Assembly (NCBI GenBank): GCA_030426845.1
Contig: JAUHXR010000002.1
Coordinates: 1-64,000, forward strand
Direction: 5' to 3'
From: Polyangia bacterium
Lineage (GTDB): Bacteria; Myxococcota_A; Polyangia; Polyangiales; Sandaracinaceae
DNA: 64,000 nt
Translations under genes and position numbers: made by a program
Notes under the pieces: model-generated
The model's input: only the letters and a program-made list of their open reading frames with translations
Database searches by the model: none
Told to the model about the DNA's origin: nothing
Shown here: positions 3,588 through 54,155 of the stretch, piece by piece
How the letters are laid out: every line of letters starts with the position of its first letter
Numbering within the stretch: position 1 is the stretch's first letter

Positions 3588-3590
3588 CGC

Positions 3591-4781
3591 TCAGGCCTCC
3601 GTGATGTCCATGTCCGAGGTGTCGAGGCTCACGATCTCGTCCTCGGCGACGGCCACGCTCGCGCCCACCGGGCTCGGCGCCGTGCCGACGGTGATGGTCG
3701 CGACCGCTTCGATCGCCGCGAGGCTCTGCAGGACGCACGAGAGCTGGGACGCGTAGAGCGTCTCGCCCACCGTGTACTGCTGCGCCCGCGCCGCGACGGC
3801 CGCCTTGGCCTCGTCGGCCCAGCCCGCGGCCGCGCCGGCCGCGAGGACGACCGTGGCCTCGAGGTAGACCTGGACCTGGCTCGCGCGGGTGAACGGGACC
3901 GAGAAGCTCTGCCCCGTGTCCGGGTCGACCGCGGTCCCGCTCGAGCCCGTGCCGACCGCCTCGATGCCGACCGGCTTGTTGTTCCAGATCGCTTGCGCGA
4001 CCGCGTCGTCGTCGGCCGAGGGCGGGCTCCCGTCCCAGATCACGACCTCGAACGACTTCGCCGGGCGCCCGGCCGCGTCGACCGCGTTGGTCACGTTCTC
4101 GTAGGCACGCACCGCGCCCGCGATCTCCGCGTCGGCGAGGAGCCGGGCGACGGCTGCGCGGACCGCGGCGAGCGTGGTCGATCCGAGCCCGCCGAGCTCG
4201 AGGATGCGCTGCTGCGCGAGTTCGACGTCGTCCGCGCGCTCGCGACCGAGCTCCGCATCCTGCGCGTTGGTGATCGAGTTCCACCCCGAGGACGGCGTGA
4301 CGATGACGGTGAGCGTGCCGCTCGGCGCCGCAACCGGGCCCGTCGCCACCGACTCGAGGGTGACCGCGATGTTCGCCGGGCTGCCGCCGGTGTTGGTGAC
4401 CGTCTCGCGCGTGCGGAACTGCGCGTCCGGGTTGCCGTCCACCGCGGCGACCGCGCCGGCCGTGAGGGTGGAACCGGCGTTGAGGTTCACCGTCGCAGCG
4501 ACGACGGACCGCGTGGCCGCGCGGCGCAGAGTCCCGGTGAGGCCGGCGACGCGGTCGAGGCTGAGCCCCTGCGCTCCGCCGTACTGCGAGGCCCAGGTCT
4601 CCTCGCTCGCCTCCCAGACCTTGGCGAGCTCCTCGCTCAGGACCCCAACGAGCTGGTGCAGAGGGCCGGCGCGGAAGTTGAGCCCCTCGAGCGCGGACTC
4701 CGACTCGAGCCGCTGAATCAGCGCCTCGAGGATCTCGGGCTGCCGACGCGCGACGAACCCCTGTGCGGTCAGGCCAGGCAC
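3591..4781 (-). CDS. Baseplate J-like protein (gp47 family)
   Basis: A 396-residue protein with the classic baseplate J layout. An N-terminal helical part includes LFRAGPLHQLVGVLSEELA-type and YGGAQGLSLDRVAGLTGTLR segments (the conserved LD-AxxxGxxR motif). A central beta domain contains RTRETVTNTG, and the C-terminal domain carries SFEVVIWDG and IAQAIWNNKPVGI (the 'qaI...kP.Gi' motif of gpJ). In P2 and Mu this protein forms the wedge that triggers sheath contraction. The flanking gp25-like and gpI-like genes complete the wedge. Confidence 0.92.
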   Translation of the reverse strand: MPGLTAQGFVARRQPEILEALIQRLESESALEGLNFRAGPLHQLVGVLSEELAKVWEASEETWASQYGGAQGLSLDRVAGLTGTLRRAATRSVVAATVNLNAGSTLTAGAVAAVDGNPDAQFRTRETVTNTGGSPANIAVTLESVATGPVAAPSGTLTVIVTPSSGWNSITNAQDAELGRERADDVELAQQRILELGGLGSTTLAAVRAAVARLLADAEIAGAVRAYENVTNAVDAAGRPAKSFEVVIWDGSPPSADDDAVAQAIWNNKPVGIEAVGTGSSGTAVDPDTGQSFSVPFTRASQVQVYLEATVVLAAGAAAGWADEAKAAVAARAQQYTVGETLYASQLSCVLQSLAAIEAVATITVGTAPSPVGASVAVAEDEIVSLDTSDMDITEA

Positions 4782-4782
4782 G

Positions 4783-5163
4783 TCAGACCTCCACCGTGCC
4801 GACCCCGTCGGCGGTTCGGAGCCGCACGCGGCCGGTGAGCCGACGCGAGGCCGGGTCGAGGGTCAGGTCGATCGCCTCGATCTGGCGCACGCCGGGCACG
4901 CGCCGGATCTCGCGCGCGAGCACGGTCCGCACGGTCGCGAGCGAGACGCCCTTGCGGAGGATCGATCCGAGGTACGGAACGCCCTGGGCGACGTCGAGGA
5001 ACCACTCGGCACGCCACCACCGCAGGCGCACGTTGACCTCCTGCACCACGGCGTCGAGCCCGGTGACGACCGCGAGGTCGACGCCGTCGACGTGGAGGTC
5101 GCCGGCGACCGGGTTGGTCACGTCGTCGACCTCGCTCGGGAGCGTGAGCCTCAGATCGGCCAC
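4783..5163 (-). CDS. Baseplate wedge protein, gp25/gpW-like
   Basis: A 126-residue protein directly before the gpJ gene (1-base gap). Size, order and pattern fit the gp25/gpW lysozyme-like baseplate family: an N-terminal VDLAVVTGLDAVVQEV segment, RWWRAEWFLDVAQGVPY in the middle, then LAREIRRVPGVRQI and a beta hairpin at the C-terminus. In Mu this is the gp46 position. These proteins nucleate the first ring of sheath subunits; the lysozyme-like catalytic residues are normally lost. Confidence 0.8.
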   Translation of the reverse strand: MADLRLTLPSEVDDVTNPVAGDLHVDGVDLAVVTGLDAVVQEVNVRLRWWRAEWFLDVAQGVPYLGSILRKGVSLATVRTVLAREIRRVPGVRQIEAIDLTLDPASRRLTGRVRLRTADGVGTVEV

Positions 5164-5164
5164 G

Positions 5165-5866
5165 TCAGTCCTCCGCCGTCACGGTGGAGCTCGCGCTCGT
5201 GATGGTGCCGCTGACGTTGACGGGGCTCGGGTTGAGAACGCCTCCCGTGGCTGAGGTCAGGAACGTCCCGGTCGGGATGGTGACCCGGACCGAGTCCCCC
5301 TCGCGCGCGACGCCCTTCGTCGCCGCGGCCGAGCCGAGCCGCACGGTGGCGTCGGTGATGTGGACCTCGCCCGCGCTCGTGACGCGCACCTGCGCCCCGC
5401 CCTCGCGGCCGACGCGCAGCTCATCGGCGGGCGGGCTGTCGAGCACACGCGCGGCCGACGGGAGCCCGGGGATCGCGATGGCGTTCGCGAGGTGGTGTAG
5501 CCGCGTGTCCGGGGTGACCGACTCGTCGCCGGTCTGCCGCCACCGCTGGTAGTCGCGCTCGAGGACGAGGAGCACGACCTCGTCCCCGGCCGCGATCGGG
5601 AGGTGGACGAACCACCCGCCCGCAGTCGCGCGGAGCTGGAGAACCGGAACGCGCCGGAGGATCGGGAGCTGCTCGAAGACGCGCCCGCCGTCGTTGGTGG
5701 TGAGCGCGCGCTTCTGCATCACGCGCACGTCCGCGGTCTGCCGGGCCGCGTCGTAGCTCTCGACCCGGCCGACGAGCGCGGTGTGCAGCTCATTCTGCAA
5801 CGCGCCGCGGAACGCCTCCATGTACTCGGCGAGGGTCCAGTCGGGACGGTCGATCTCCTCCGTCAT
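5165..5866 (-). CDS. Membrane-piercing baseplate spike, Gp138-N/gp45-like
   Basis: A 233-residue protein. The ATG at 5866 overlaps the hub stop (ATGA) and is preferred over a much longer in-frame reading upstream that duplicates the hub gene in another frame. The N-terminal 40 residues are helical, followed by an OB-fold-like domain (RVESYDAARQTADVRV, PVLQLRATAGGWFVHLPIAAGDEVVLLVLERD). The Thr/Ser/Gly-rich C-terminus resembles the beta-helical needle of trimeric spikes. It would cap the tail tube and puncture the outer membrane. Confidence 0.8.
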   Translation of the reverse strand: MTEEIDRPDWTLAEYMEAFRGALQNELHTALVGRVESYDAARQTADVRVMQKRALTTNDGGRVFEQLPILRRVPVLQLRATAGGWFVHLPIAAGDEVVLLVLERDYQRWRQTGDESVTPDTRLHHLANAIAIPGLPSAARVLDSPPADELRVGREGGAQVRVTSAGEVHITDATVRLGSAAATKGVAREGDSVRVTIPTGTFLTSATGGVLNPSPVNVSGTITSASSTVTAED

Positions 5867-6726
5867 GCCGCGGCCTCCTCGGGGGCGAGCTCGCAGGTCG
5901 CCTGCCAGGTGTCCGAGTGCGTGTCGCCCTCGGCGCGGATCGCGCGGACGACGTAGGTCCCCTCGACGCGGTCCGACTCGAGGCGCACGCGGCGTCCCGG
6001 CCAGAGGTCGGGGGCGAGGAGGGCGCGGGCCGTGACGTGCCCCCGCGGCCCGACCTCGGGGCTCCCGAGGAGACCCGTGTCGGCCGCGAGCCGGACGGCC
6101 TGCGACTGCAGCGCGCGCCCGCGACGGACGACCTGGATCGCGCCGTGCTGGACGCTCCAGCGCAGCCCGTACGCGCGGAGGATCTCGGTCAGCTCGCGCG
6201 CGGCCTGCCCCGAGAGGACAGTCCCCTCGGGGTAGGTGGTCTGCCCGCCCTCGAGCTTGGCGAACGTCTCGACCTGAGCGAGGTTGCCCTCGCCCACGCC
6301 GAGCGCGGCTGCGCAGTCGCGGAGCACGGTGGTGAGCCGGACCCCGGCCTGGTAGCTGCGCGAGACGCGCGCCTCGCGGAACGCGCGCCCGCCGTCGGTG
6401 GCCTCGACCACCGTCACCCCGTCGACCTTGTCCTGCTCGTGGCGCACGGGGGAGGGCCGCCCTCGGCGACCGGCGCGGGCGCGGAGAACCGACCCACGGA
6501 AGACCTCGGCCCGGCCGTCGACGTAGCCGGCCTCGACCACCACGAGCGCCTCGGCCGCGTCGCGGATGAGCGCCTGCGAGTCGCGGGTGATGTTGTAGAG
6601 CCGGATCGTTGCGTGGTTCGGGCTCGGCCGGACCGTGCGCTCGATCTCGAACGTCACGCGCAGCGGCTTGGCCACCACGAGCTCGCCCACCTGGACGCGC
6701 CAATCCCTGTCGAAGAGGCGCGTCAC
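5863..6726 (-). CDS. Baseplate hub protein (gp27/gpD-like)
   Basis: A 287-residue protein with the hub-type opening: WRVQVGELVVAKPLRVTF, then NHATIRLYNITRDSQALI, which matches the 'a.i.iyNls..t...i' motif of phage hub proteins. It also has the middle 'LTEILRAYGLRWSVQHGAIQVV' type segment (residues about 180-205) found in gpD/gp27-like proteins. Lies between the plug and spike genes, as expected for the ring on which the spike sits. Confidence 0.8.
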   Translation of the reverse strand: MTRLFDRDWRVQVGELVVAKPLRVTFEIERTVRPSPNHATIRLYNITRDSQALIRDAAEALVVVEAGYVDGRAEVFRGSVLRARAGRRGRPSPVRHEQDKVDGVTVVEATDGGRAFREARVSRSYQAGVRLTTVLRDCAAALGVGEGNLAQVETFAKLEGGQTTYPEGTVLSGQAARELTEILRAYGLRWSVQHGAIQVVRRGRALQSQAVRLAADTGLLGSPEVGPRGHVTARALLAPDLWPGRRVRLESDRVEGTYVVRAIRAEGDTHSDTWQATCELAPEEAAA

Positions 6727-7067
6727 GCCGCGGCCTCCGCGAGCTCGGCCTCGGTCACGTAGACGATCCGGGCGCGATCACCGCCGAGGGAGTCGAGGGT
6801 GAGCGCGGGCGTGGGCGAGCGACCGTCGAGGATCACCAGCTCGCCGGGCGGCATCTCCGGCCGGGCGCCGCGCACGTAGCGCAGGAGCGGCACGTTCGGG
6901 ATGACGCGCAGGCCGCCCGCGAGGAGCACGCCCTCGGCGTCGGAGACGTCGAGCGCCCACCGCGCGGCGCGCTGGAGCCAGCGCCAGCGCAAGACGAACT
7001 CCCGGCCGTCGAGCTGAACGCGCTGGGTGGAGTCGGGACCCGCGGGCTGTCGGAGGATGCGGCTCAT
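6723..7067 (-). CDS. Baseplate plug protein, Pam3 gp18-like
   Basis: A 114-residue protein; the ATG at 7067 gives an ATGA overlap with the upstream gene and is chosen over a start 18 bases earlier. The pattern REFVLRWRWLQRAARWALDVSD, 'LLAGGLRVIPN', 'LLRYVRG' and 'PPGELVILDG' matches the small beta-rich plug domain described from cyanophage Pam3. It comes right after the Dit-like gene and before the hub, as in that phage group. It is thought to close the tube-hub junction before contraction. Confidence 0.72.
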   Translation of the reverse strand: MSRILRQPAGPDSTQRVQLDGREFVLRWRWLQRAARWALDVSDAEGVLLAGGLRVIPNVPLLRYVRGARPEMPPGELVILDGRSPTPALTLDSLGGDRARIVYVTEAELAEAAA

Positions 7068-7720
7068 CCGAAGATCCCCCGCCACGCCTGCAGAGCGAGG
7101 CTCGTCTGCGGCTCGTCCTCGACGTCGTCGGTCCCCTGCGCCCCCTGATCGCGTCCGCGTTGGTCACGAGGGCGAACCGGCTCGGCGACGTCGACCAGCT
7201 CCGTCGCGACCTGCCGGATCGGCACGAACACCAGGTCGGCGACGAGCAGGCTCCCACGGTCGCTCGTGCGCTGCGCCTCGGCGCTGAGGAGCACCATCGA
7301 CTCGTACGTCTTGAGCTGGGTGCGGACCGTGGCGAGGTAGCCCTCGTCCCGCGCGAGCTCGAGCGCCGCCCAGTTGTCGGCGGTGCGGGTGATCTCCTCC
7401 GACGAGGGCCGGAAGACCTGTGCGGTGAACGCGGGGAGCCCCGGCGGTCGCAGCTCGACGCCCTCGGTCGCACCCGGGGCCTCGAACGCGAACCACTCGG
7501 GGTCGTCGGCCTCGATGGACTCGATCGGCGAATCGCTGATCGCGAGCTGGAGGTCGAGGGGCGCGCGCTCGGCGCGGTAGTGGTCGGTGATGTCGACGCC
7601 CTCCTCGACCTCGTTCTCGGTCGCGACCGCGGCGACGCGGTGCGTCTCGACGAGCACGGCGTCGGCGACGATTGCGAGGAGCCCGTCGGGGGTCTCGAAG
7701 AGGATGTCGGCGGCGGCCAT
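7064..7720 (-). CDS. Dit-like phage tail protein
   Basis: A 218-residue protein. Residues about 20-90 (VETHRVAAVATENEVEEGV, DITDHYRAERAPLDLQLAIS) match the Dit-like N-terminal domain: an antiparallel beta domain whose motif is 'E...veqG..isDHv...p..l.l.g.is'. The C-terminal half has a helix (NWAALELARDEGYLATVRT) then strands (YESMVLLSAEAQRTSD, LLVADLVFVPIRQ). It would join the tail tube to the hub. Confidence 0.78.
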   Translation of the reverse strand: MAAADILFETPDGLLAIVADAVLVETHRVAAVATENEVEEGVDITDHYRAERAPLDLQLAISDSPIESIEADDPEWFAFEAPGATEGVELRPPGLPAFTAQVFRPSSEEITRTADNWAALELARDEGYLATVRTQLKTYESMVLLSAEAQRTSDRGSLLVADLVFVPIRQVATELVDVAEPVRPRDQRGRDQGAQGTDDVEDEPQTSLALQAWRGIFG

Positions 7721-9177
7721 CAGGTCGCCCCCTGCGGCAGTTCGGCCACGGCCTGATTGACGAGCCGACGCTCGTGGTCGGAGAGCGCGCGCTCGACGAG
7801 CCGGCGCGTCCGCTCCGGATCCCCGCCACCGTTGATCGTGATGCTAGGCCGGCTGTCGACGCGAACGTCGGTACGACTCGGCGCACCTTGGGCGACCTGC
7901 CCGACCGGGATCACCGGTCCCTGGCCGATGAGGCCGCGAAGGGCCTCGGCGTTCAGCGCAAGCCGAGGCCGCGGCACGCGCCCTCCGCCCCGGGCTTCTG
8001 CCCCGTCGGGCGTCGTTTCGTTCTTGCCCTGAGCGGCCATGAACGCGCTCCGAAACTCGCGACGCTGTCGCGCCTCGGGCGAGAGGTTGCCCGGATCCTC
8101 CACCAGGCCAAGGAGCTGCCCGGCCTCGCGAAGCACGTCGACAAATCCCTCCCAGGCGGACGTGAGGGCCTCGACGATCGTCTGGGTGGCCCCCACCCCG
8201 AAGATTCCATCGATGAGGGCGCCGAGAGCTGACTCGCCTCCCTGAAACGCGACGATCAGATCGTCGATGAGGAGGACGAGCAGGCCGAAGCCGAGCAGCC
8301 CCAAGGTGAGCGGCAGGAAGGCCACCGCGAACGCGATGGCGAGCGCGCCGAGCACGGCGACGAGGGCCCAGAGCCCAACCTCGAGCGCGTTCGATCGACG
8401 GAGCGCGGCGCCGATCGAGACGGACCACTCCGTCACAACGTTGAGCACGCGCGTGAGGGTGGGGAGAAGGGCGGCGCCGAGCTGGCTCTTGAACGAGAGG
8501 GTCGCGGTGTTCCAGTCGGTGAGCGCGTCCTGGGCTGCCTCCGCGTTGACGACGAAGTCCGCGCTCAGCCCGCCGCCGAGCTCGCGGAAGCGCTGGAGCA
8601 GGTCCGCCACGCCCTCCTCGCCGCCGTTGAGCAGGGGGAGCAGCCGGGCGCCCGAGCGGCCCATGAGGGTCTGCGCCAGGGCGACCTTGCGCGTCTCGTC
8701 GTCGAGAGCGCCCATGCCCCGGGCCATCTGGGTCATGAGCTGGTCGGCCTCGAGGAGGTTCCCGTTCCCGTCGTCGACCGTGACCCCAAGCGCCCGGAAC
8801 GCCTCGACGTACTGCGCCGACCCGCGCGACGCTTCGAAGGCCGCGCGCTGGAGCCGCATGAAGCTCTGCGACATCGCGCGGCCGTCGACACCCGCGCGGT
8901 CGGCCGCGAACCGCCAGGCCTGCAGCTGATCGGTGCTCAGCCCGAGCTGCTGCGACGTCTTGCCCAGCTCGTCGCCGAGGTCGATGAGCTCCGTGGTGAA
9001 CTGCGCGACCTCGCGCACCGCGAGCGCGCTCGCCATCGCGGTCGCGAACGCGCCGAGCTGCGGCAGGGCGGTGCGCACCCCGGCGACGAACGTCCCGACG
9101 GACCGGTTGGCCGCGCGGAGCTGCTCGCCACCGCGCACCCGGATCCGCAGGTCGGCGAGGACGTCACGAAGCGACAC
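7720..9177 (-). CDS. Tail tape measure protein
   Basis: A 485-residue protein placed between the frameshifted chaperones and the Dit-like gene, the invariant tape-measure position. The N-terminal region is helical and Ala-rich (QLGAFATAMASALAVREVAQF), followed by the usual LGDELGKTSQQLGLSTDQLQ motif. A long hydrophobic stretch (residues about 270-325) and a helical tail follow. At 485 residues it implies a short tail of the simple-myovirus class, since tape length scales with tail length. Confidence 0.9.
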   Translation of the reverse strand: MSLRDVLADLRIRVRGGEQLRAANRSVGTFVAGVRTALPQLGAFATAMASALAVREVAQFTTELIDLGDELGKTSQQLGLSTDQLQAWRFAADRAGVDGRAMSQSFMRLQRAAFEASRGSAQYVEAFRALGVTVDDGNGNLLEADQLMTQMARGMGALDDETRKVALAQTLMGRSGARLLPLLNGGEEGVADLLQRFRELGGGLSADFVVNAEAAQDALTDWNTATLSFKSQLGAALLPTLTRVLNVVTEWSVSIGAALRRSNALEVGLWALVAVLGALAIAFAVAFLPLTLGLLGFGLLVLLIDDLIVAFQGGESALGALIDGIFGVGATQTIVEALTSAWEGFVDVLREAGQLLGLVEDPGNLSPEARQRREFRSAFMAAQGKNETTPDGAEARGGGRVPRPRLALNAEALRGLIGQGPVIPVGQVAQGAPSRTDVRVDSRPSITINGGGDPERTRRLVERALSDHERRLVNQAVAELPQGAT

Positions 9178-44016: not shown

Positions 44017-44817
44017 TCAGAAGACCCCGCGGACGGCGCCGACGCAGCCGGTCGGTCCGCATGCGGCGGACGCCTCGACCTCGCCGCCGTCGTCGAGCAC
44101 CCACCAGAGCACGCCCGCGGCGGCGGCCACGAGGGCGACGCCGAACAGGACGTCGGTGCTGACGGTCAGCGCGGTCAGCGTGTCGATGTCGCCCGCCTGC
44201 TCCGCGCTGCACGCGCCGCCCGGGCACTGCGCCTCGAGCGAGCCGTACTGCTCGTTGGCGAGGATCGCGGTCACGACGCCCGCGACCAGCGCCGCGCCCC
44301 CGACCCCGAGGAGGATCGCCGGCCCGGCCCGCGATGGCTCCTCGCGGGCCGGCGGCGTCGGGTCGGCCGGCGGGTCGGCCTCGCGCGCCGCCTCCTCGGC
44401 CGCGCGCGCGTCGAGCTGGGCCTGGATGACCTGGATGCGCCGCTCGACGTAGTTGCGGTTCGCCGCCCGAGGCATCGCGGAGAGGAACGCGCGGTAGCCC
44501 GCGGCCGCGTCCTCGAGGCGCCCGAGTCGGTCGAGCGAGGTGGCGATGTTGTAGAGCAGCTCGGGGTGCTCGGTGAGCGCGTAGGCCTCGCGCCAGCTCG
44601 CCAGCGCCTCTTCGAAGCGGCCGTCGCTGAACGCGTCCTGCCCGGCCTGGAACAGGCTCCGCGCCTCGCGGTCCTCGCTGTCGGCCTGCTCGCGCGCTTC
44701 GCGCTGCTCGTCGGGCGGGCCCTCGCCCGAGGGCGACTGCGCGGCGGCCGTGGCCGAGAGCCCGGCCCAGGCGAGCGCGATCGTCAGGAGCCAGAGGGGG
44801 GTGCGCGGCTTGGTCAT
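44017..44817 (-). CDS. TPR protein with signal peptide and two C-terminal helices
   Basis: About 266 residues from ATG 44817 (AAGGAG nine bases upstream); ATG 44823 is an alternative. Signal peptide TPLWLLTIALAWAGLSATAAA, then a short TPR region (ARSLFQAGQDAFSDGRFEEAL, YNIATSLDRLGRLEDAAAGY). Two membrane helices (GPAILLGVGGAALVAGVV; VSTDVLFGVALVAAAAGVLW) close the protein. Common architecture in myxobacterial envelope proteins. Downstream of the RCC1 gene in the same direction. Confidence 0.8.
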   Translation of the reverse strand: MTKPRTPLWLLTIALAWAGLSATAAAQSPSGEGPPDEQREAREQADSEDREARSLFQAGQDAFSDGRFEEALASWREAYALTEHPELLYNIATSLDRLGRLEDAAAGYRAFLSAMPRAANRNYVERRIQVIQAQLDARAAEEAAREADPPADPTPPAREEPSRAGPAILLGVGGAALVAGVVTAILANEQYGSLEAQCPGGACSAEQAGDIDTLTALTVSTDVLFGVALVAAAAGVLWWVLDDGGEVEASAACGPTGCVGAVRGVF

Positions 44818-44831
44818 GGTCATCGGCTCCT

Positions 44832-47800
44832 TCACGGCAGGTCCATCAGGGTCGGGGCGAAGTAGAGGGGGTGGCCGCCCCCGGTCGCGCCCAGGTCGTC
44901 GGCGCCCCAGCAGGCGACCGAGCCGTTGGTCTGGAGCGCGCACGTCGTGTGGGCGCTGGTCGAGCCCGTGGTCACGGAGGTCGCGTCCGTCACCCCGCCC
45001 ACGACCTGGGGCGTCACGATGCTCCCGTAGTCGGTGCCTCCGACCGCCGAGAAGGTGTTGGCCCCCCAGCAACGTGTGTTGCCATCATCGTAGCTCGCGC
45101 AGGAGTGCGTCTCACCCGCCGCGACCGACGTGGCGCGGGCGCTGAAGCCGGTCGTCGACACGACCACCGGGGTCGTGGCGTTGACCCCCGTGCTGCCGTC
45201 ACCGAGCTGCCCCCCCCCGCCCGAGCCCCAGCAGGCGACGGCGCCGCCGGCCCGGAGCGCGCAGGCGTGCCGGAAGCCCACCGCGAGCGCAGTCACTCCG
45301 GTGAGCCCGGTGACCGGCGCGGGGCTGGTGTGCGGGGTGGTCGTCCCGTCGCCGAGCTGGCCGGTCGTGTTGGCCCCCCAGCAGACCACCGTGCCGCCCG
45401 CGCGGAGCGCGCAGGTGAAGTCGCGGCCCACGCCGAGCTGGGTGGCGTCGGTGATCCCCGAGACGAGCCCCGGGGCGCCGTCGGCGCCGCCGGTGTCCCG
45501 GCCGAGCTGACCGCTGTCGTTGGCGCCCCAGCAGTAGACCGAGCCCTGGCCGCTTCCCGCCGCCGACTCCTGGATGGCGCAGGTGTGGTTGTCGTCGATG
45601 GCGACCGCGATCTCCTCGCCGCCCGGGATGTCGACGAGCGTCGGCTCCGTCGTGTTCGCGGTCGGTCCGCCGGTCTGCCCGCGGTTGTTCTGGCCCCAAC
45701 AGAGCACCTGGCGGCCGTCCGGGGGCCCCGCGTCGACGATCACGCAGGTGCCGTCGCGCCCCGCGCTGACGTGCTGCACGCCGAGGAGGCCGCTGACCGC
45801 CGAGGCGTAGCTCTCGGCGCTGGGCTGGCCGGCCTTGTTCCACTCGGAGCTCCCCCAGCAGTAGAGCGCGCCGAGCCGGATCCCGCAGCCGTGGTTGAAC
45901 CCGAAGCTCACCTCGGTGAAGTCCGTCGGGGCGACCCCGGCCTGGTCGACCACCGTCACCGCGCTCTCCGCGTAGAGCGTGGGCCGGAGGATCTGGCCCT
46001 CGCCGCTCCGACCCCAGCAGTAGACGCGGCCGTCCTGGATGCCGCACGCGTGCCCGAGGCCCGAGTGGACCGTGCGCATCGCGTCGAGCCCAGGCACGCG
46101 GATCGGCGGGTCGCCGTTCTGCGTGAGCGGCGCGCGCAGGCCATCGCCGAACTGCCCGTTTCGGTTGTTGCCCGCGCACCGGACGCCGTCGCTCATGCGC
46201 CAGCAGAGGGCGTAGTTCACCATCCACGCCTCGAGCACCCCGCTCGGCTCGCGGGTGACCGGGACCGTCTCGTAGTCGACGGGGACCCGCGTCCCGAGCG
46301 CGCCGGCCGTGTTGTAGCCCCAGCAGCGGAGGCTGCCGCCCGTGCCGATGGTGCAGAAGGTCCGGTACTCGCGGAGGATCTCTCTCGCGTCGCTGACGCC
46401 CATCACGGTGACGGGGACGTGGCTCGACGTGGTGGTCCCGTCGCCCAGCGTGCCGTACTGGTTGTCGCCCCAGCACCGGACCGTCCCGTCGGTCAGGACC
46501 GCGCAGCTCGCCGCGTTGGAGGTCGCCACGTCGGTCGCGCTCATCGGCAGCGGCACGCGCGTAGCCTGGTTGGTGGTCGCCTCGCTCGTCGGGCGCCCCG
46601 TCTGACCGCGCGTGTTCTGGCCCCAGCACCAGACCCCGCCCAGGTCGTCCAGCGCGCAGGTGTGGGCGTCGCTGGTCGCGACGGCCACGAAGCTCCGGGC
46701 CGCGAAGGCCGCGTCGGCGCTCGTCACGAGCTGCGGCTCCGCTTCGCGAAGGGCGGGCGGCGGGTCGATGCCGAGCTGTCCCTGCGGCCCGAAGCCCCAG
46801 CAGCGGAGGCGGCCGTCGAGGCCGATGACGCAGGTCTGGTTGGCGCCCGCGCTGACCGCGCGGACGAGCAGCGGCGGCGCGCCGGGCGAGAGCGACTCGC
46901 GGACCATGACCGCCTCCTCCGGGCTGCGGGGCAGCAGGTCGGGCGCGGACTGGGCGTGCCGGTTCCGTCCCCAGCACCACAGCTGCCCGCTCTGGCGGAT
47001 GACGCAGGTGTGCCCGATCGAGCCGGCGACGTCGATCGCCGGGTCGCACACCCCCGCGACGCAGGCGGTGCCCGGGCTGCACACGACGCCGCACCCGCCG
47101 CAGTGGAAGGGATCGTCGAGGAGGCTCGCCTCGCAGCCGTTGCGCCCGTCGCCGTCGCAGTCGCCGAAGCCCGCGGCGCACTCCTGGACCTCGCACGCGG
47201 AGCTCTCGCAGGTCGTCGAGACGACCTGGGCCGTGCCGCAGGCCATGTCGCACCCGCCGCAGTGGCTCACGCTGCTCGTGGTGTCGACGCAGCTCCCGCC
47301 GCACACCGTGCCCGCGCAGGTCGCCGAGCACACCGGCGACGCGCCCGTGCTGTCGCAGAGCTCGCCGCTCGCGCAGGCGACGTCGCAGGCGCCGCAGCTC
47401 GTGGCCGAGGCGAGATCCGCCTCGCAGCCGTTGGTCGCGTCGGAGTCGCAGTCCTCGAAGCCGGCCATGCACCCGCTGAGCGTGCAGGCGCCCGCCTCGC
47501 ACGCGCCGACCGCGTTGGCGAGGTTGCAGGCCATCCCGCATCCCCCGCAGTGCGTGAGGCTGGTGTCGGTCTCCGCCTCGCAGCCGTCGGCCGCGGCGCC
47601 GTTGCAGTCCGCGTATCCGTCCTCGCAGCCCGCCGGCGCGCAGCGGCCCGCGACGCACTCGGCCAGCGCGTGCGGACCCACCGTGCAGTCGGCGGCGGTC
47701 ACGCACGGCTCGCCTCCGGGCGGGCCCGCGTCGATGACCGTGAAGTCGCCGGAGCTGCGCACCAGGCTGCACCCCGAGAGGAGCAGCCCGGCGCCGAGGG

Positions 47801-47852
47801 AGAGCGCGAGGAGCGCGCGCCGCGGGTTCGGAGGGGCGAGAGTGACGTCCAT
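44832..47852 (-). CDS. Giant Cys-rich RCC1-repeat lipoprotein
   Basis: A 1006-residue protein. Signal MDVTLAPPNPRRALLALSLG with lipobox LLLSGC (Cys 28). Residues about 50-275 are Cys-rich EGF/scavenger-like modules with repeated CGGCGMAC, GFEDCDSDATNGCE and CDGDGRNGCE motifs. Residues about 280-1000 carry many RCC1/ATS1 blades with the V/W-CWG-N-x-G-Q-L/T-G core (QLWCWGRNRHAQ, VWCWGQNTRGQTG, VRCWGDNQYGTLGDG), suggesting beta-propellers on the cell surface. Probable surface recognition protein; ligand unknown. Confidence 0.9.
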   Translation of the reverse strand: MDVTLAPPNPRRALLALSLGAGLLLSGCSLVRSSGDFTVIDAGPPGGEPCVTAADCTVGPHALAECVAGRCAPAGCEDGYADCNGAAADGCEAETDTSLTHCGGCGMACNLANAVGACEAGACTLSGCMAGFEDCDSDATNGCEADLASATSCGACDVACASGELCDSTGASPVCSATCAGTVCGGSCVDTTSSVSHCGGCDMACGTAQVVSTTCESSACEVQECAAGFGDCDGDGRNGCEASLLDDPFHCGGCGVVCSPGTACVAGVCDPAIDVAGSIGHTCVIRQSGQLWCWGRNRHAQSAPDLLPRSPEEAVMVRESLSPGAPPLLVRAVSAGANQTCVIGLDGRLRCWGFGPQGQLGIDPPPALREAEPQLVTSADAAFAARSFVAVATSDAHTCALDDLGGVWCWGQNTRGQTGRPTSEATTNQATRVPLPMSATDVATSNAASCAVLTDGTVRCWGDNQYGTLGDGTTTSSHVPVTVMGVSDAREILREYRTFCTIGTGGSLRCWGYNTAGALGTRVPVDYETVPVTREPSGVLEAWMVNYALCWRMSDGVRCAGNNRNGQFGDGLRAPLTQNGDPPIRVPGLDAMRTVHSGLGHACGIQDGRVYCWGRSGEGQILRPTLYAESAVTVVDQAGVAPTDFTEVSFGFNHGCGIRLGALYCWGSSEWNKAGQPSAESYASAVSGLLGVQHVSAGRDGTCVIVDAGPPDGRQVLCWGQNNRGQTGGPTANTTEPTLVDIPGGEEIAVAIDDNHTCAIQESAAGSGQGSVYCWGANDSGQLGRDTGGADGAPGLVSGITDATQLGVGRDFTCALRAGGTVVCWGANTTGQLGDGTTTPHTSPAPVTGLTGVTALAVGFRHACALRAGGAVACWGSGGGGQLGDGSTGVNATTPVVVSTTGFSARATSVAAGETHSCASYDDGNTRCWGANTFSAVGGTDYGSIVTPQVVGGVTDATSVTTGSTSAHTTCALQTNGSVACWGADDLGATGGGHPLYFAPTLMDLP

Positions 47853-47903: not shown

Positions 47904-50012
47904 CTACCAGATCTCGATCTCCTCGATCGTCGACCACTTGTCGCCGCCGTCCGTGACGATGAAGCTGAGCGCGGCCGCCTCCGCGCCGCTGTCGATCGGG
48001 AGGTCCTCGATCACGTACTTGGTGCCGTAGGCGAGGGGGCTCGGGAGGACGCTCGACAGGTCCACCACGTCTCCCGAGCTCGTGTAGAGGACGGGCGGGT
48101 AGAACGTGCCGTGGGCCGACTCCTCGTTGGTGAAGATGACCGCGGTCAGCGAGCTCGGATCGAGCGCGCAGACCCGGCAGCCGCCGGTCGGCGGCTGAGG
48201 CCCGAGGGGGCCGGCCTCGCGCGAGGGGTACTGCTCGAAGGGGCACAGATCGGGGTGAGGGCCGATCGCGGACATGTCGCTCATGATCGTCCCTGCGCCG
48301 CAGGTCGGTGAGCTGACGGCGTCGACGAGGGAGGCCGCCGAGAAGTTGGGGCCGCCGGGCGGCAGCGACGCGATCGCCCCGGGAGAGAGCACGACCGGCG
48401 AGCCGGCGCCGGGGCCGATGCGGGTCGCGGTGCAGGTCACGCCGCAGATCGTCGCGCCGGGGTCGCGCGTGCACACCTCGGCCGCGGCCTCGAGGAGCGC
48501 ACCGCACATCGAGATCCGCGCGACCGTGCCGCAGCTCCCGCCGGGGGCGCAGAAGTCCGCCGCGCCGAGGTGGCTCAGGGGGACGGCCGAGGCGTAGAGG
48601 TGATCGGCGACGTCCGACGCGGTCCAGTGCGGCGTGTAGGACCAGAGGATCGCGGCGGCGGCGGCGGCGGCGACCGGGCCGAATGAGGTGCCCGTCATCA
48701 GCGGGGTCGGGTTGCCGGGGCCGGCGCCGTCGAGGTCGAACGCGACGCTGCGCCCCGGCGCCACGAGCTCGGGCATCCCGCCGACGCGGCCGAGCTGGAG
48801 CGGCTGGTCGGACGGGTCGACCGCGCCCACCGCGTAGAGCAGCGGCTCGCCGCACGACGCGACGTCGCTCGCCCAGGCCCCGGGCAGCATCGGCCCTGCG
48901 CTCGCGCCGGGGCCGCCGGTCGCGTTGCCGGCCGACGCGAACACGAGCGCCTGGTAGCCGCAGACCGCGGCGTCGAGCGCCCGCCGCAGCGCGTCGGCCG
49001 AGGGTCGCGGGCTGCCGTCGGAGAGCACCTCGTAGCCAGGCTCGGCGCCGATCGACAGCGCCAGGATCCGCGGGGCTCCGCCGCGGGCGGACGAACCCAC
49101 GGTCACCGCCTCCTCGATCGCGGCCGCGACCTGCGAGAACGTGCCGATCACCCCCCCCTCGGCGCGCTCGTCCGAGCCGTCCGGCAGGCGCTCGAGCGCG
49201 ACGTGGTTGGTGAACTCGGTGTTGCAGACGGCGCCGCTGCCGCCCGGGCAGGCGAGGGCCTCGATGAGGTGACCCATCACCGCGCCGTGGGACGACGCGC
49301 TTCCCCGCCCGGAGGGCGCGGGCGACGTGAACCCGGTGTTAGGCGGCGCGGTGTCCAGCACCGCCACGTGCGTGGTCCGCGGGAGCGGCCCGTCCACCGC
49401 CGAGACGACGGAAGGCAAGGACGACTCGGCCTCGAGCTGGGCGAGCCAGCCCTCGTAGTATTCCTCCCAGACCGCGGCCGACGCGAGCTCCGAGTCGGAT
49501 CCGCCGAGGCCGACCATCACCGGGCAGTCCGGCTGGAGCCAGTCCATCGGGGCGCGCCCGTCGTCCGACGGCGGCAGGCCCCCGGGGCCGGGGTTGTGCG
49601 TGGTGTGCTCGTAGACGCAGTACCGACCGGCCATTGTCTCGAAGCCGTGGGTGAACAGATCGCGCACGTCCCAGCCGCCTCCCGGCACGGGGCAATGGTT
49701 GCTGGCGAGGGCGAGCCGTCCGACGAGGACGTTGTCGAGGCACTGCTCGGTGATGCCCGGTCGCGGCTCGCTCCCGACGCAGTAGACGGTGCCCACCGGC
49801 TCGTCGACCGTGCCGTCGCAGTTGTCGTCGACGTGGTTGCAGATCTCGGGCGCGCCCGCGTGGATCGCGGGGTCCGAAGGCGCGCAGTCGCTCCCGTCCG
49901 GATCACCGTCGCCATCGGAGTCGCCGGCGACCGCGAGCCCGGTCGATCCCACGTCGGCGACGCACCCCCCGCTCAGCAGGAACGCCAACAGCCCATAGCG
50001 AATTTGCCTCAT
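47904..50012 (-). CDS. Subtilisin-like (S8) serine protease lipoprotein
   Basis: A 702-residue protein; ATG at 50012 overlaps the CHAT gene stop (ATGA). Lipobox FLLSGGC (Cys 17), then DSDGDGDPDGSDC and ICNHVDDNCDGTVDE, the MopE-type metal-binding motif. The S8 fold follows: Asp 220 (VAVLDTAP), His 242 (SHGAVMGHLIEAL), Asn 363 (VFASAGNATGG) and Ser 443 (LMTGTSFGPVAAAAA). The usual DTG and HGTH motifs read DTA and SHGA. The last 200 residues are Cys-rich. Likely anchored at an envelope face; partner of the CHAT protease upstream. Confidence 0.88.
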   Translation of the reverse strand: MRQIRYGLLAFLLSGGCVADVGSTGLAVAGDSDGDGDPDGSDCAPSDPAIHAGAPEICNHVDDNCDGTVDEPVGTVYCVGSEPRPGITEQCLDNVLVGRLALASNHCPVPGGGWDVRDLFTHGFETMAGRYCVYEHTTHNPGPGGLPPSDDGRAPMDWLQPDCPVMVGLGGSDSELASAAVWEEYYEGWLAQLEAESSLPSVVSAVDGPLPRTTHVAVLDTAPPNTGFTSPAPSGRGSASSHGAVMGHLIEALACPGGSGAVCNTEFTNHVALERLPDGSDERAEGGVIGTFSQVAAAIEEAVTVGSSARGGAPRILALSIGAEPGYEVLSDGSPRPSADALRRALDAAVCGYQALVFASAGNATGGPGASAGPMLPGAWASDVASCGEPLLYAVGAVDPSDQPLQLGRVGGMPELVAPGRSVAFDLDGAGPGNPTPLMTGTSFGPVAAAAAAAILWSYTPHWTASDVADHLYASAVPLSHLGAADFCAPGGSCGTVARISMCGALLEAAAEVCTRDPGATICGVTCTATRIGPGAGSPVVLSPGAIASLPPGGPNFSAASLVDAVSSPTCGAGTIMSDMSAIGPHPDLCPFEQYPSREAGPLGPQPPTGGCRVCALDPSSLTAVIFTNEESAHGTFYPPVLYTSSGDVVDLSSVLPSPLAYGTKYVIEDLPIDSGAEAAALSFIVTDGGDKWSTIEEIEIW

Positions 50013-52774
50013 TCGAGTCCTCCGAGATCCGACGTGATGATCCGGTACGCGCTCCACTCTGAGGGGAACCGTACACGTGATTCAAGCACCGCCTGGCGCA
50101 GCGCCTGGCGGTCGAGAGCTGCCTGAGCAGCGTGGTGCGCAAGGCGGCTGGCGAGGTACGCGGCCGCCTCGTCGGACACCGGCCGCGAGGTCGCGACCAC
50201 CGTGGCCGAGCCGGCGAGCAGGAACGCGGGCGCGAGGCCGAGGCCCTGGACCTCCGTCGCGTCGGCGCTCGTGGCGGCGGTGGCGCAGCCCGAGAGCACG
50301 ACGAGCTGCGGCGCGCCCTCGCTCGCGAGCACGTCGGCGGGGGTCAGGCGGGTGCCGCCGGCGAGCGCGATGCCGCGCTCCCAGCCGCGCAGATCGTCGC
50401 TCACGCCGTGTCCGGCGAAGTGGAGCGCGCGGACCGCGCCGAGCTGCGAGAGCACCGCGCCGCGTCGGGCCTCCTCGCCGACGAGGCTCCGCGCCCGATC
50501 GCCCAGCGCCGCCGCGAGCGCGGCGTGCTCCTCGCGCGCGCCGGGGAGGTTCCCGGCCGGATCGGTCACGAGCAGGACCGGCCCGTCGGTGTGGGGCGCG
50601 TCGTCGGTGCGCTCGGGATCGAGGTCGACGTCGAGGTCGAGCGAGTAGAGGACCTCGCGCTGCGCCAGCAGGGGCGCACCGCGCCACGGCCGTCCGTGCA
50701 GCTCGAGCGCGGCGAGCGCGGCCGGGGCGACGATCACCACGCGGTCCGCCGCCTCGACCCAGTCGTCGAATGGGCCGAACGCCCACTCGCCCTGCGCGGC
50801 CGGCTCGGCGGGGGGGGCGTCCCGGCGCGCGGCGCGGTGCTGGCCGTCGAAGTGCGCGAGCAGCAGCCAGCCCTCGCCCTCGAGCGGCTGGGCGACGAAC
50901 AGCAGGGCGCCGGGCGGCGGCGCCCGGAGCGTCGCCCGCGGCTCGGGTCCGAGCGCCGCGTAGGCCGCGTCGAGCTCACGAGCGAGGCTCTGGCTCGCGG
51001 CGCGGAGCTCCTCGTCGAACGCGCCGAGGCCCTCCTCGGGGACCTCCCAGCGGGTGGCGAGCCGCTCGTCCAGCGCGGCCCGGCCCCGCCGGTAGCGGGC
51101 GAGCGCGGCCTGCCAGGCGGCGCGGCTCGGGCCGCTGAGGGCCTCGATGCGGCGCTCGCGGGCGAGCGTACGGAGCGAGCGAGCCTGCGCGCGGCGGCTG
51201 GCGGCCATCGCCTCGTCGAGCGCGCCCGCCTCGTGCAGCGCGAGGACGAGCGCGGCCGCCGTCCGACCCCGGCGCGACGCGAGCGTGTCGCGACCCGCCC
51301 CCACCGTGACCGCGCGGACCTCGGCGTCGAGCGTCTGCTCCGCGCTCCGGAGCGCCTCGATCCGCGCCTCGGCGGAGTCCGCCGCCTCGGCCATCCACCA
51401 GCTCGCCCGCCACGCGGCCTCGAGGTGGCCGGCGTCCTGCGCGCGGGTCCGCAGATCCGCGTAGATGCCGTGCGCGCGCGCGCGCTCGCCGCGCGCCAGG
51501 GCGACCCGACCCTCGACGTCGATCAGCCAGCTCTCGAGGTCGAAGGCCGGCTCCCGCTGCAGCGCGCGCGCCCGCCGGAGCAGCCGCTCCGCCGCGTCGG
51601 GCTCGCCGCGGGCCGCCTCGACCAGCGCCCAGGTGCCGAGCCCGTCCGCCGCGATCTGATCGTTCCGGCAGGGGCCGGTGAAGCCCTCCACCGCTCGCTC
51701 CGCCGCCTCGGCCGCGCGCGTGAGCCGCCGCGGATCCACCCCGCGCGCGACCGGACCGTCCGCGAGCAGGAAGTCGAACCACGCCCGGGTGGCGAGCATG
51801 TGCGCGCGGACGCACGCGTCGGCGGCGCTCCCCGCGAGCCCCGCCCCGGCCCCGAGGCCCGCCTCGAGCTCGGCCTCGAGCTCGGTGAGCAGGCGGTCCG
51901 CCTCGGAGACGCGGCCGAGCTGGACCAGCACGGGCGTGCGCATCTGGTTGGCCATCCAGCGGGCGTCGTCCATCCCGAGCCGTCGCGCCCAGCGCTCCGC
52001 CTCCTCGAAGCGCTCGAGCGCCCGCGCCGGCTCCGCCCGATCGAGCGCGAGCAGGCCCTCCTCGTAGGCCACGTCCGAGCGATGCTCCGCCACGACGTCG
52101 ACCAGCGGGCCGATGCGCGCGAGGGCCGCCTCGGCCCCGTCGAGGTCATCCGAGAGCTTGTGCTCGGTGAACGCCAGGGCGATCCCGTCGCGGACGGCGC
52201 GCGAGAGCGATCCGCGGCCCTCGTGGAGCGTGATCGCCTCCTCGAACGCGGGGATCGCCGCCGCGTCGTCGCCGGTGGAGAGCGCGATGCGGGCCGCCTG
52301 GGACAGCGCCTGGGCGCGCGTGGTCGGGTCGGCCAGGAGCGGGGCCAGCCGCGCGCGGGCGCCGTCCAGATCGCCGGCCGCGCGGAGCTCGGCCACCTCG
52401 TCGAACCGGGGCGCGTCCGGCTCGCGGGTGAGCGCCAGGCTCCACCCGCGTCGCTCCTGGCCCGCCGACGTCACGCGGACGGCGAGGCGCCGCGCGTCGC
52501 TCGAAGGTCGCACGGTGAGCTGACGGCCGCCGGCCACCGGGTTCGACTCCACGCCCACCGGCTCGCCGTCCACCCGGACCTCGACCGCGCCGTCCCCCGG
52601 CGCCGCCCACCACACCACGAGCCGCGGCTCCTCGCCCAGCGCGCAGACCGGCCCCTCGTGCACCGCGGCGCACCCGGCGAACACGACGCCCTCGAGTGTT
52701 GTGTCGTAGGCGAGCTCGGTCGGGCGGAGGAACAGGGCGGTGGCCGCGACCGCGAGGGCGACGCGGTCCTTCAC
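50009..52774 (-). CDS. Exported TPR-CHAT protease-like protein
   Basis: A 921-residue protein. The N-terminus MKDRVALAVAATALFLRPTELA looks like a signal peptide. Residues about 130-560 are helical TPR-like repeats (ARIALSTGDDAAAIPAFEEA, ALERFEEAERWARRLG). Residues about 640-921 are a CHAT (caspase-HetF-associated-with-TPR) domain with catalytic His 789 (LHFAGHGVSD) and Cys 830 (VVLSGCATA). Overlaps both neighbours by four bases. Export of a CHAT protease is unusual; the family is more often cytoplasmic. The S8 protease downstream may be its substrate or its activator. Confidence 0.88.
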   Translation of the reverse strand: MKDRVALAVAATALFLRPTELAYDTTLEGVVFAGCAAVHEGPVCALGEEPRLVVWWAAPGDGAVEVRVDGEPVGVESNPVAGGRQLTVRPSSDARRLAVRVTSAGQERRGWSLALTREPDAPRFDEVAELRAAGDLDGARARLAPLLADPTTRAQALSQAARIALSTGDDAAAIPAFEEAITLHEGRGSLSRAVRDGIALAFTEHKLSDDLDGAEAALARIGPLVDVVAEHRSDVAYEEGLLALDRAEPARALERFEEAERWARRLGMDDARWMANQMRTPVLVQLGRVSEADRLLTELEAELEAGLGAGAGLAGSAADACVRAHMLATRAWFDFLLADGPVARGVDPRRLTRAAEAAERAVEGFTGPCRNDQIAADGLGTWALVEAARGEPDAAERLLRRARALQREPAFDLESWLIDVEGRVALARGERARAHGIYADLRTRAQDAGHLEAAWRASWWMAEAADSAEARIEALRSAEQTLDAEVRAVTVGAGRDTLASRRGRTAAALVLALHEAGALDEAMAASRRAQARSLRTLARERRIEALSGPSRAAWQAALARYRRGRAALDERLATRWEVPEEGLGAFDEELRAASQSLARELDAAYAALGPEPRATLRAPPPGALLFVAQPLEGEGWLLLAHFDGQHRAARRDAPPAEPAAQGEWAFGPFDDWVEAADRVVIVAPAALAALELHGRPWRGAPLLAQREVLYSLDLDVDLDPERTDDAPHTDGPVLLVTDPAGNLPGAREEHAALAAALGDRARSLVGEEARRGAVLSQLGAVRALHFAGHGVSDDLRGWERGIALAGGTRLTPADVLASEGAPQLVVLSGCATAATSADATEVQGLGLAPAFLLAGSATVVATSRPVSDEAAAYLASRLAHHAAQAALDRQALRQAVLESRVRFPSEWSAYRIITSDLGGLE

Positions 52775-53535
52775 GGATCGCGCTCCAGGCGGAGCTCCGC
52801 GCGGAAGGTGCGGGCGTCGTCGTCGTCGCCGAGCTCGATCTCGACCGCGACCGGGCCGACGCGTTCGCCAAAGAGCGCGCGCGCGGTCCCCGCGATGCGG
52901 ATCGCGCCGCGCGCTGAGCGCTCGACGGGCGGGTCCCAGGGCGCCCGGGCGCCGTCCGCGACGAGGAAGCAGCGGACCTCCGGCGGCGCGCGCTCCGTCT
53001 CGGGCCGCAGCACGATCTCGACGCGCGAGCCGGGGGACAGGGTCGCCTCGGGCGCGGCCGCGCCCTCCGAGCGGAGCTCGCGATCGCCCGCGGTCAGCTG
53101 CAGCGTGTAGCCGTCGAGCGCCCCCGCGTCGGTCTGCGGGCGCAGCACCAGGAAGAGCACCGCGGCCGCCGCGGCGAGCACGACCCCCCCGGCGATCCAG
53201 GCGCGCCGGCCTCGGCCGATCGGCACGACCTCCGCGGGCGGGCGCGCGGGCGGCGCCTCGTCCGTCGCGTCCGTCGCGCTCATCGTCTCCGCGACCTTGT
53301 CGGAGGTCGTCCCCGACAGCGCGCCCGCGGCCGCCGCGGTCAGCGCCTCGAGCGTCGCGTCGTCCATCGGTGCGAACGCCTCCCGGCGCTCGGGATCGGT
53401 GAGCGCCTCATCGTCCTCGCCCGCCGCGAGGCGCTCCCACGCCTCCCACTCCGCGCGCTGGGCCGCTTCGGCCTCCGGATCGCGCGCGCGGAGCGCCGCC
53501 GCGACCTCCTCGAGCAGCTCGTCGCCATCGCTCAT
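52771..53535 (-). CDS. Single-pass membrane protein, anti-sigma candidate
   Basis: A 254-residue protein; ATG at 53535 (ATGA overlap with the sigma gene). A 105-residue charged N-terminal region with helix MSDGDELLEEVAAALRARDP, a transmembrane helix at 112-131 (AWIAGGVVLAAAAAVLFLVL) and an outside domain rich in beta strands with one Cys (VRCFLVADGA). Size, topology and position directly after the ECF gene fit a membrane anti-sigma factor, but no zinc HxxxCxxC motif is visible. Confidence 0.7.
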   Translation of the reverse strand: MSDGDELLEEVAAALRARDPEAEAAQRAEWEAWERLAAGEDDEALTDPERREAFAPMDDATLEALTAAAAGALSGTTSDKVAETMSATDATDEAPPARPPAEVVPIGRGRRAWIAGGVVLAAAAAVLFLVLRPQTDAGALDGYTLQLTAGDRELRSEGAAAPEATLSPGSRVEIVLRPETERAPPEVRCFLVADGARAPWDPPVERSARGAIRIAGTARALFGERVGPVAVEIELGDDDDARTFRAELRLERDP

Positions 53536-54155
53536 CGAGCCGGCTCCACGCTGAGCGGCGGCCGCAGCTCCGCCGCGATCCGGTCGGCGACCTTCCGGAT
53601 GCGTCGCTTGCCCTGGTAGACCGCGTCGCGGGTCATCGACAGCTCGTCGCAGATCGCCTCGACGCTCCGCTCCTCGACCCACAGCAGGGTGAAGAGCCGG
53701 AAGGCCTCCGGGGTGAGCTCCTCGCGCAGCCGCTCGATCGCGGTGGAGAGCTCCTCGCGGGCCGCCACCTCACGGTCCGGTCCGCGGGCGCTCGGCGCGC
53801 GGCGGACGAGCTCCTCGGTCTCGTAGGGCGTCTCCGTGTAGGGGCTCTGGCGGCGGCTCCGCAGCTTGGACAGGGCGCGCCGCTCCGCGACCATCGCCGC
53901 GTAGCCTTCGAGCGAGAGCCCGCCGTCCGCGCGCCAGGCCCGGAGCACCTTCGCGTCGTCGGAGAACAGCACCACGAGGACATCTTGAACCATATCCTGG
54001 AGCTCATCCCGGACCGAGCGCCCGGCGCTGCGGCGAAGGAGGACGCGCGCGACCCGCGCCTGGATCGACGGCGTGAGCCCGCGCACCAGCGCGCCCAGCG
54101 CCTCGCGATCCCCCTCCAGTGCGCGTTCGAGCTGCGAGGCGAGCGGGTTGGTCAT
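53532..54155 (-). CDS. ECF-type RNA polymerase sigma factor
   Basis: A 207-residue protein with sigma2 (VRDELQDMVQDVLVVLFSDD, EGYAAMVAERRALSKLRSRR) and sigma4 (EAFRLFTLLWVEERSVEAIC, DELSMTRDAVYQGKRRIRKV) regions; it lacks sigma1.1 and sigma3, as ECF factors do. It is first in a four-gene operon with overlapping starts, followed by a membrane protein, a CHAT protease and an S8 lipoprotein. It probably drives its own operon. Confidence 0.88.
   Translation of the reverse strand: MTNPLASQLERALEGDREALGALVRGLTPSIQARVARVLLRRSAGRSVRDELQDMVQDVLVVLFSDDAKVLRAWRADGGLSLEGYAAMVAERRALSKLRSRRQSPYTETPYETEELVRRAPSARGPDREVAAREELSTAIERLREELTPEAFRLFTLLWVEERSVEAICDELSMTRDAVYQGKRRIRKVADRIAAELRPPLSVEPAR

Follow-up and report, generated by a model that had tools for sequence, protein, structure and literature searches.

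A recurrent four-gene cassette from a Polyangia bacterium encoding a putative CHAT-controlled ECF sigma factor switch

In Myxococcus xanthus, DdvS is an extracytoplasmic function (ECF) sigma factor that is active once its anti-sigma factor DdvA has been inactivated, as described in PMC4374960. In Craspase, the substrate of the TPR-CHAT protein Csx29 is Csx30, by which an ECF-like sigma factor is inhibited, and the first-cut protease that the same source names for RseA/RsiW-type systems is DegS, which is not a CHAT protein (PMC10028731). Separases, which are caspase-like, are reported to cut after Arg (PMC4626109). Already known are both an ECF sigma factor with a CHAT-bearing anti-sigma factor and a TPR-CHAT protein that controls a sigma inhibitor. 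Here we analysed a 64,000-nucleotide stretch of DNA from Polyangia bacterium (hereafter the window; positions 1 to 64,000 of contig JAUHXR010000002.1, assembly GCA_030426845.1, a genome of 9.4 Mb in 538 contigs), which carries a cassette encoding, in this order, an ECF sigma factor, a single-pass membrane protein (TMP), a TPR-CHAT protein and a lipoprotein with an S8 subtilase domain. We find that the cassette is very probably a module in which an ECF/anti-sigma pair is controlled from the periplasm by the CHAT protein.

All four genes lie on the minus strand, from 54155 to 47904, and each stop codon shares four bases with the start of the next gene, which confirms the overlaps described by the first-pass annotation of this stretch. 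The catalytic residues that it listed, His789 and Cys830 in the CHAT protein and Asp220, His242, Asn363 and Ser443 in the S8 lipoprotein, likewise stand where it placed them. Among the window proteins, the Pfam models for CHAT (89 bits) and Peptidase_S8 (36 bits) and the MopE-type motif all match over their cut-offs. The sigma factor matches NCBIfam TIGR02937 sigma70-ECF with 46.5 bits against a cut-off of 42.9, the Pfam region 2 and region 4 sigma models match it below their cut-offs, and a profile built from 24 relatives matches the ECF sigma factor of PDB 9isn (E 3.7e-13).

The source genome contains three CHAT genes over the Pfam cut-off, each accompanied by an ECF sigma factor, a TMP and an S8 lipoprotein. 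The second copy (C357) has the order of the window and the third (C532) runs CHAT, TMP, S8, ECF, with identities to the window proteins of 30-35% for CHAT, 32-45% for ECF, 33% for TMP and 25-38% for S8. Since all three CHAT genes of the genome have these partners at only 25-45% identity, the association is more than chance, and a set that is kept despite sequence drift and reordering is a functional unit.

The same association was observed across other genomes. The CHAT profile matched 32 of the 144 genomes of the order (E 1e-10) and 89 of the 377 genomes of the phylum (E 1e-20), with many weaker matches covering the catalytic part only; from the phylum search, 40 matches were fetched, mostly the longest of a longer list. 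The counted set comprises 79 distinct near full-length CHAT loci, including the window and its two copies, after removal of duplicate contigs (L077, L086, L089, L138 and L159) and of loci whose CHAT match had a coverage under 0.8 or an E value over 1e-60. A partner was counted when it lay within 8 kb of CHAT, using the uniterated CHAT profile (its iterated form drifted to cyanobacterial proteins) and iterated ECF, TMP and S8 profiles; gene positions were taken from the profile searches because the gene caller skipped overlapping genes. ECF and TMP are found near CHAT in 63 of the 79 loci, which supports the annotated ECF/membrane-protein module with its S8 lipoprotein, and the set is completed by S8 in 40. 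The other loci have ECF and TMP without S8 (23), TMP and S8 (4), S8 alone (7) or no partner (5). The 40 complete sets occur in 11 arrangements, the exact order of the window being present at 28/79 loci. Upon clustering at 60% identity, 68 groups were obtained, 53 of them with ECF and TMP (33 complete and 20 without S8); of the others, 6 have S8 as the sole partner, 4 have TMP together with S8, and 5 have no partner. Among the named organisms that carry all four genes are Polyangium fumosum, Sorangium cellulosum So ce26 and two Nannocystis species, and the full set is also present in two metagenome-assembled genomes labelled Acidobacteriota by their depositors. The four-gene set is conserved well outside close relatives, and it was a lack of such conservation that the first-pass annotation had put forward as a refuting test. 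Its proposal of two proteases in one circuit fares unevenly, as the set recurs and the need for both proteases is weakened by 28 of the 79 loci having no S8.

As controls, none of 63 cyanobacterial TPR-CHAT loci fetched by this search (identified by record title) gave an ECF, TMP or S8 family match, and 13 regions of the same phylum with weaker CHAT matches (L066-L075, L193-L195) contained no TMP or S8 and a single ECF (L067). Among the excluded loci, S8 adjoins a partial CHAT in L079 and L183, and L092 has CHAT alone; in L183, two S8 family genes stand in tandem (3365-7768) beside the one partial CHAT. In the reverse direction, the S8 family yielded 17 matches in 12 of the 144 genomes, all 12 of them CHAT-positive; 16 of the matches lie within about 5 kb of CHAT, and the seventeenth, also from a CHAT-bearing genome, is at the end of a contig. 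TMP family matches were found in 35 of the 144 genomes, the strong ones mostly adjoining CHAT and some weaker ones occurring in genomes without a CHAT match. At one locus (L174), two TMP-family matches flank CHAT and ECF.

Next, we examined the CHAT protein. Its AlphaFold2 model (residues 28-921) has a mean predicted local distance difference test (pLDDT) score of 87.4, and its closest known relative is the transmembrane anti-sigma factor DdvA, which ranks first in the Foldseek search (8rot, E 1.2e-11), ahead of separase and Csx29 entries. VIA-align superposes the model on the Craspase TPR-CHAT protein 7y83 with Z 28.5 (root-mean-square deviation, rmsd, 8.2 over 515 residues), on DdvA with Z 23.9 (rmsd 6.0, 617 residues) and on separase 5fby with Z 21.7 (rmsd 3.5, 290 residues), and the CHAT profile matches DdvA over its CHAT part (E 4.3e-10). 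The clan CD His-Cys dyad, His789 and Cys830, is kept in all 77 readable sequences of the 79, the other two being gapped there, with identities to the window CHAT of 25-34% in an aligned subset. Asp868 is Asp in 74 of the 77 and opens a model helix after the Cys-bearing part (841-857 in model numbering, offset 27); it aligns with the WDVTD stretch of separase and with an Asp of DdvA, and Csx29 has no matching acid. The helix that bears it is comparable to the separase helix with the P1-Arg contact, and a published model of C. elegans separase has the P1 Arg contacted by an Asp close to where helix alpha4 begins (PMC4626109).

The location of the CHAT protein is indicated by its N-terminus and by gene fusions. 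The window CHAT has a hydrophobic N-terminus without a clear lipobox, and among 69 unfused CHATs we found 34 with a lipobox by a simple pattern, 27, including the window, with another signal-like start, and 8 with none found. In five loci, all of one genus label (L046 and L050-L053, label g51), TMP and CHAT form one open frame. With the N-terminus of the fused chain inside, together with the sigma factor, CHAT would therefore lie outside, on the side of the TMP C-terminus, which agrees with the signal-like N-termini of the unfused proteins; the CHAT protein is thus very likely exported, as had been proposed. DdvA being the top Foldseek match and TMP and CHAT being fused in these loci, the cassette is, by analogy, a split DdvA-like and Craspase-like sigma switch. 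Between the fused gene and S8, L046 and L050 have a large secreted protein whose C-terminus we take to be a MYXO-CTERM-like motif, and L051-L053 have a gene of like size.

We then considered the membrane protein, which we infer to be the anti-sigma factor. Its AlphaFold2 model (mean pLDDT 81.8; predicted template modelling score 0.51) comprises an N-terminal helical domain (helices 3-16, 20-37, 43-46, 48-54 and 59-86), a transmembrane helix (114-130) and a C-terminal immunoglobulin-like (Ig-like) beta domain (strands within 143-250). The window TMP matched no Pfam family at E 1, and 21 relatives gave single-member matches only; the TMP profile found no Csx30 chain among PDB sequences at E <=10. 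The fold search covered the Ig-like domain and the helical half barely, and an anti-sigma fold is neither claimed nor excluded by it. A known family was also sought by sequence in the PDB, which returned just two designed proteins.

The most conspicuous feature of TMP is a single arginine. The alignment comprised 55 of 68 listed references. Excluded were four of the five TMP-CHAT fusions, a number of near-duplicates and doubtful frames, and three CHAT-less sequences (L196, L199 and L201), two of which, L199 and L201, have no Arg at the place concerned. Arg155 is kept in 54 of the 55 and precedes a small residue (Gly, Ser or Ala; Ser156 in the window) in 52 of them, while the two preceding residues vary freely and several later positions are gap-rich. 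It falls at the start of a low-confidence stretch (151-160, mean pLDDT 63), about 25 residues past the transmembrane segment; this stretch separates the first hairpin of the Ig-like domain from its remainder (block means 86-97). The loop is predicted to be periplasmic, and the conservation makes Arg155 a candidate CHAT cleavage site.

The fourth component varies more in its make-up. In the S8 family alignment, Asp220, His242 and Ser443 are present in 55/55 members and Asn363 in 54/55, the Asp-His-Ser triad being intact in the window protein, and a C-terminal tail begins with a CxxC pair whose first Cys (C612) is kept in 55/55 and second (C615) in 54/55. In the first S8 set, CxxC was found in 15/15, mostly as QPxxxxCxxC, about 90-105 residues from the end. 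In loci without S8, 14 of 16 lipoprotein-like frames near CHAT (within 300 bases and on its strand) have CxxC 55-140 residues from the end, compared with 14 of 124 frames farther off across all CHAT loci (Fisher p 6e-10 for a pattern chosen after some of the short lipoproteins had been seen). A search with profiles of the S8 parts covered all frames of at least 60 residues in the loci collected to that point. Outside the S8 proteins, the N-terminal-part profile matched only the short lipoproteins of L135 (4e-9), L055 (3e-8) and, weakly, L061 (1e-3), and the tail profile matched those of L040, L039, L036 and L037 (2e-5 to 6e-3). Direct profile comparison of the S8 tail with the short lipoproteins was weak (hhalign probability 31-42%), the later profile search being firmer; for seven of the 14, homology to the S8 lipoprotein has support, and for the other seven it is no more than suggested. 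The tail profile also matched a frame upstream of CHAT in L185 (8013-8729, 6e-6), a locus with CHAT at the contig end and an S8 gene of its own, and in L037 two successive frames with CxxC tails follow CHAT (6688-8596).

Of the 21 S8-less loci in which over 2.5 kb of sequence flanks CHAT on each side, 13 have a CxxC-tailed neighbour; those without one are L041, L045, L047, L054, L160, L174, L184 and L191, and in L054 a short CxxC lipoprotein is visible by eye, outside the test. Because S8-less loci so often carry a short lipoprotein of this kind, the S8 domain appears to be optional, and the fourth component seems to be a scaffold lipoprotein to which this domain may be added. The coordinates of the cassette and its features are collected in Table 1.

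Table 1. Cassette genes and sequence features in window coordinates.
Feature	Position	Strand	Basis
ECF sigma factor, 207 aa	53532..54155	-	TIGR02937 over cut-off; profile of relatives matches PDB 9isn
TMP, single-pass membrane protein, 254 aa, putative anti-sigma factor	52771..53535	-	AlphaFold2 model; ECF/CHAT neighbourhood
TMP transmembrane segment, residues 113-131	53143..53199	-	hydropathy and model helix 114-130
TMP Arg155, candidate P1 of CHAT cleavage	53071..53073	-	conservation; low-confidence model loop
TPR-CHAT protein, 921 aa, GTG start, signal-like N-terminus	50009..52774	-	PF12770; caspase/separase-type cysteine peptidase fold in model
CHAT His789	50408..50410	-	His in 77/79 loci
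CHAT Cys830	50285..50287	-	Cys in 77/79 loci
CHAT Asp868, candidate S1 acid	50171..50173	-	Asp in 74/77 readable; helix start in model
S8 subtilase-domain lipoprotein, 702 aa	47904..50012	-	PF00082 and MopE motif
MopE-type (PF11617) metal-binding motif, S8 lipoprotein residues 42-71	49800..49889	-	Pfam match
Cys612-x-x-Cys615, start of the conserved C-terminal tail of the S8 lipoprotein	48168..48179	-	S8 family alignment

Beside the cassette, the window contains an RCC1-repeat lipoprotein (44832-47852), whose Cys-rich part matches the NCBIfam MXAN_6577-like model below its cut-off and whose gene overlaps the next one (44017-44835) by four bases. It had been suggested as a partner of the two proteases, a suggestion that we reject, as relatives at phmmer E 1e-10 were found in L048, L068 and L073 only, and L048 alone of these belongs to the counted loci, which leaves a relative near one of the other 78. 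Additionally, a promoter word shared before the ECF genes was sought without a motif emerging, the best pair occurring in 10 of 63 sequences against 6-7 in shuffles and almost all of the leading pairs being GC-rich.

From the gene set, its recurrence, the catalytic residues, the DdvA/Craspase/separase-like fold and the fusions, all of which were computed, we infer binding and cleavage steps that combine into an ECF sigma circuit under the periplasmic control of a caspase-like protein, a scheme that we consider somewhat more probable than not. The sigma factor would be kept at the inner membrane by the N-terminal helices of TMP; the TPR region of CHAT would dock the lipoprotein via its CxxC-tailed scaffold and read an envelope signal; the activated CHAT would cut TMP after Arg155 in the periplasmic loop, as the first of several cuts; and further proteolysis would free the sigma factor. 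Cleavage after Arg155 in particular is plausible, although short of probable. The S8 domain, where present, could supply an optional second activity, which might act early in the circuit by trimming the lipoprotein or CHAT, or might be directed at targets outside it, and any particular role assigned to it is quite unlikely to be the right one.

Several observations weigh against this scheme. The locus counts come from related genomes and are not independent. Five CHAT loci have no partner (L041, L064, L065, L084 and L177); four of them lie near contig ends, and in the genomes of three (G031, G068 and G032) an ECF-TMP pair is present on another contig. No anti-sigma family or structure matched TMP in the profile and fold searches. 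Within its Ig-like domain, Pro178 and Gly210 are as conserved as Arg155 (54/55 each), and Arg155 may therefore have a structural role. The CHAT-less TMP relatives L196-L200, which have no ECF-family match nearby, show Arg-Gly in two of five (L196 and L198) and no Arg at this place in L197, L199 and L200; beside CHAT, the readable TMP copy of L174 lacks the Arg, and that of L189 has it only after realignment. Furthermore, in the profile alignment the counterpart of Asp868 is a separase Asp that precedes the residue expected to make the P1 contact by about one helical turn, and an Arg preference of CHAT is therefore a prediction.

The main rival would be that CHAT is a binding or sensing domain which relays a change of shape as in DdvA, the dyad serving, for example, self-processing. 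DdvA is named an anti-sigma factor in a PDB entry whose title mentions no protease, and the TMP-CHAT fusions would suit such a relay; the retention of His and Cys in every readable CHAT despite the low identity argues the other way, and we regard this explanation as rather unlikely. The S8 lipoprotein might instead be the site-1 protease that acts on TMP, with CHAT controlling S8, an arrangement that fits the two-protease scheme of the first-pass annotation. The S8 family is almost exclusive to CHAT loci in the order and its triad is intact throughout, and yet S8 is missing from the neighbourhood at 23 of the 63 loci where ECF, TMP and CHAT occur together, and TMPs of S8-less loci, for example L036-L040, L047 and L048, retain the Arg, which makes S8 an improbable cutter.

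It is also conceivable, and about as unlikely as a shape relay, that the S8 lipoprotein and its short relatives are outputs of the regulon, secreted effectors encoded merely beside their sigma factor. The position and orientation of S8 vary between loci, and the secreted protein between CHAT and S8 in L046 and L050, with the like-sized gene of L051-L053, would fit such a group; the recurrence of scaffold parts in adjacent protease-less short lipoproteins would not be expected of a pure effector. Defence is among the known settings of CHAT proteins, and a defence or programmed-death module would agree with the match of the PADLOC BovA model to CHAT residues 811-885 (E 7e-7). The PADLOC scan of the four window proteins gave nothing else and no full known system, the set consists of an ECF sigma factor with envelope proteins, and the genome has three copies of it; we found no evidence here for the defence role that had been raised, and consider it highly improbable.

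To our knowledge, CHAT-type caspase relatives are widespread in bacteria and few of their substrates are known. If CHAT-controlled release of the sigma factor takes place as proposed, a likely CHAT substrate with a near-invariant Arg is encoded next door, and bacterial CHAT targets become testable outside CRISPR. The cassette could also explain the purpose of the CHAT part of DdvA and add a new type to the proteases that make the first cut in ECF circuits. What appears to be new here is the optional S8 domain on a CxxC-tailed lipoprotein and the near-invariant TMP Arg155 as a candidate cleavage site. The split layout, the lipoprotein with an optional subtilase domain, the spread and the candidate site were not found in the open-licence papers searched, a scope outside which the DdvA structure paper and the ECF classification paper lie. 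The first-pass annotation knew of no described system of this exact composition, which was too strong in one respect, DdvA with its TPR-CHAT part being known.

Compared with DdvS-DdvA (PDB 8rot, 8rw5), the cassette shares an ECF sigma factor and a transmembrane regulator with a TPR-CHAT part. DdvA is one chain, whereas the window has TMP and CHAT as separate genes, a TMP without HxxxCxxC and an added CxxC-tailed lipoprotein. The DdvA-like L210 and L211 have one chain with an HxxxCxxC-type N-terminus, a transmembrane segment and a CHAT part; the gene next to this chain looks sigma-like, on a profile match in L210 (E 1e-3) and on visual inspection in L211. The window-family CHAT profile does not reach L209-L211 (E 0.01), and none of seven regions around DdvA-like CHAT matches has an S8 profile match; one genome (G214) contains four such matches (L208-L211). 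Separase (clan CD) has the caspase-like fold and the His-Cys dyad and, unlike the window CHAT, is a eukaryotic cohesin protease without a sigma link. The cassette would resemble RseA/RsiW-type regulated proteolysis in that the first of several successive cuts falls outside the membrane; PrsW, another first-cut protease, is not a CHAT protein. Craspase (type III-E CRISPR; Csx29, Csx30 and CASP-sigma) resembles it in having a TPR-CHAT protein, a sigma inhibitor and an ECF-like sigma factor, and differs in being RNA-guided, whereas the window CHAT has a signal-like N-terminus and the candidate inhibitor is a membrane protein. It is possible, though tentative, that the cassette is a CRISPR-free extracytoplasmic counterpart of Craspase, in which a periplasmic, Arg-specific, separase-like CHAT, gated by a dedicated CxxC-tailed lipoprotein that may or may not carry its own subtilase, would be the site-1 protease that releases the ECF sigma factor by cutting the anti-sigma factor after Arg155, and DdvA would be the fused form.

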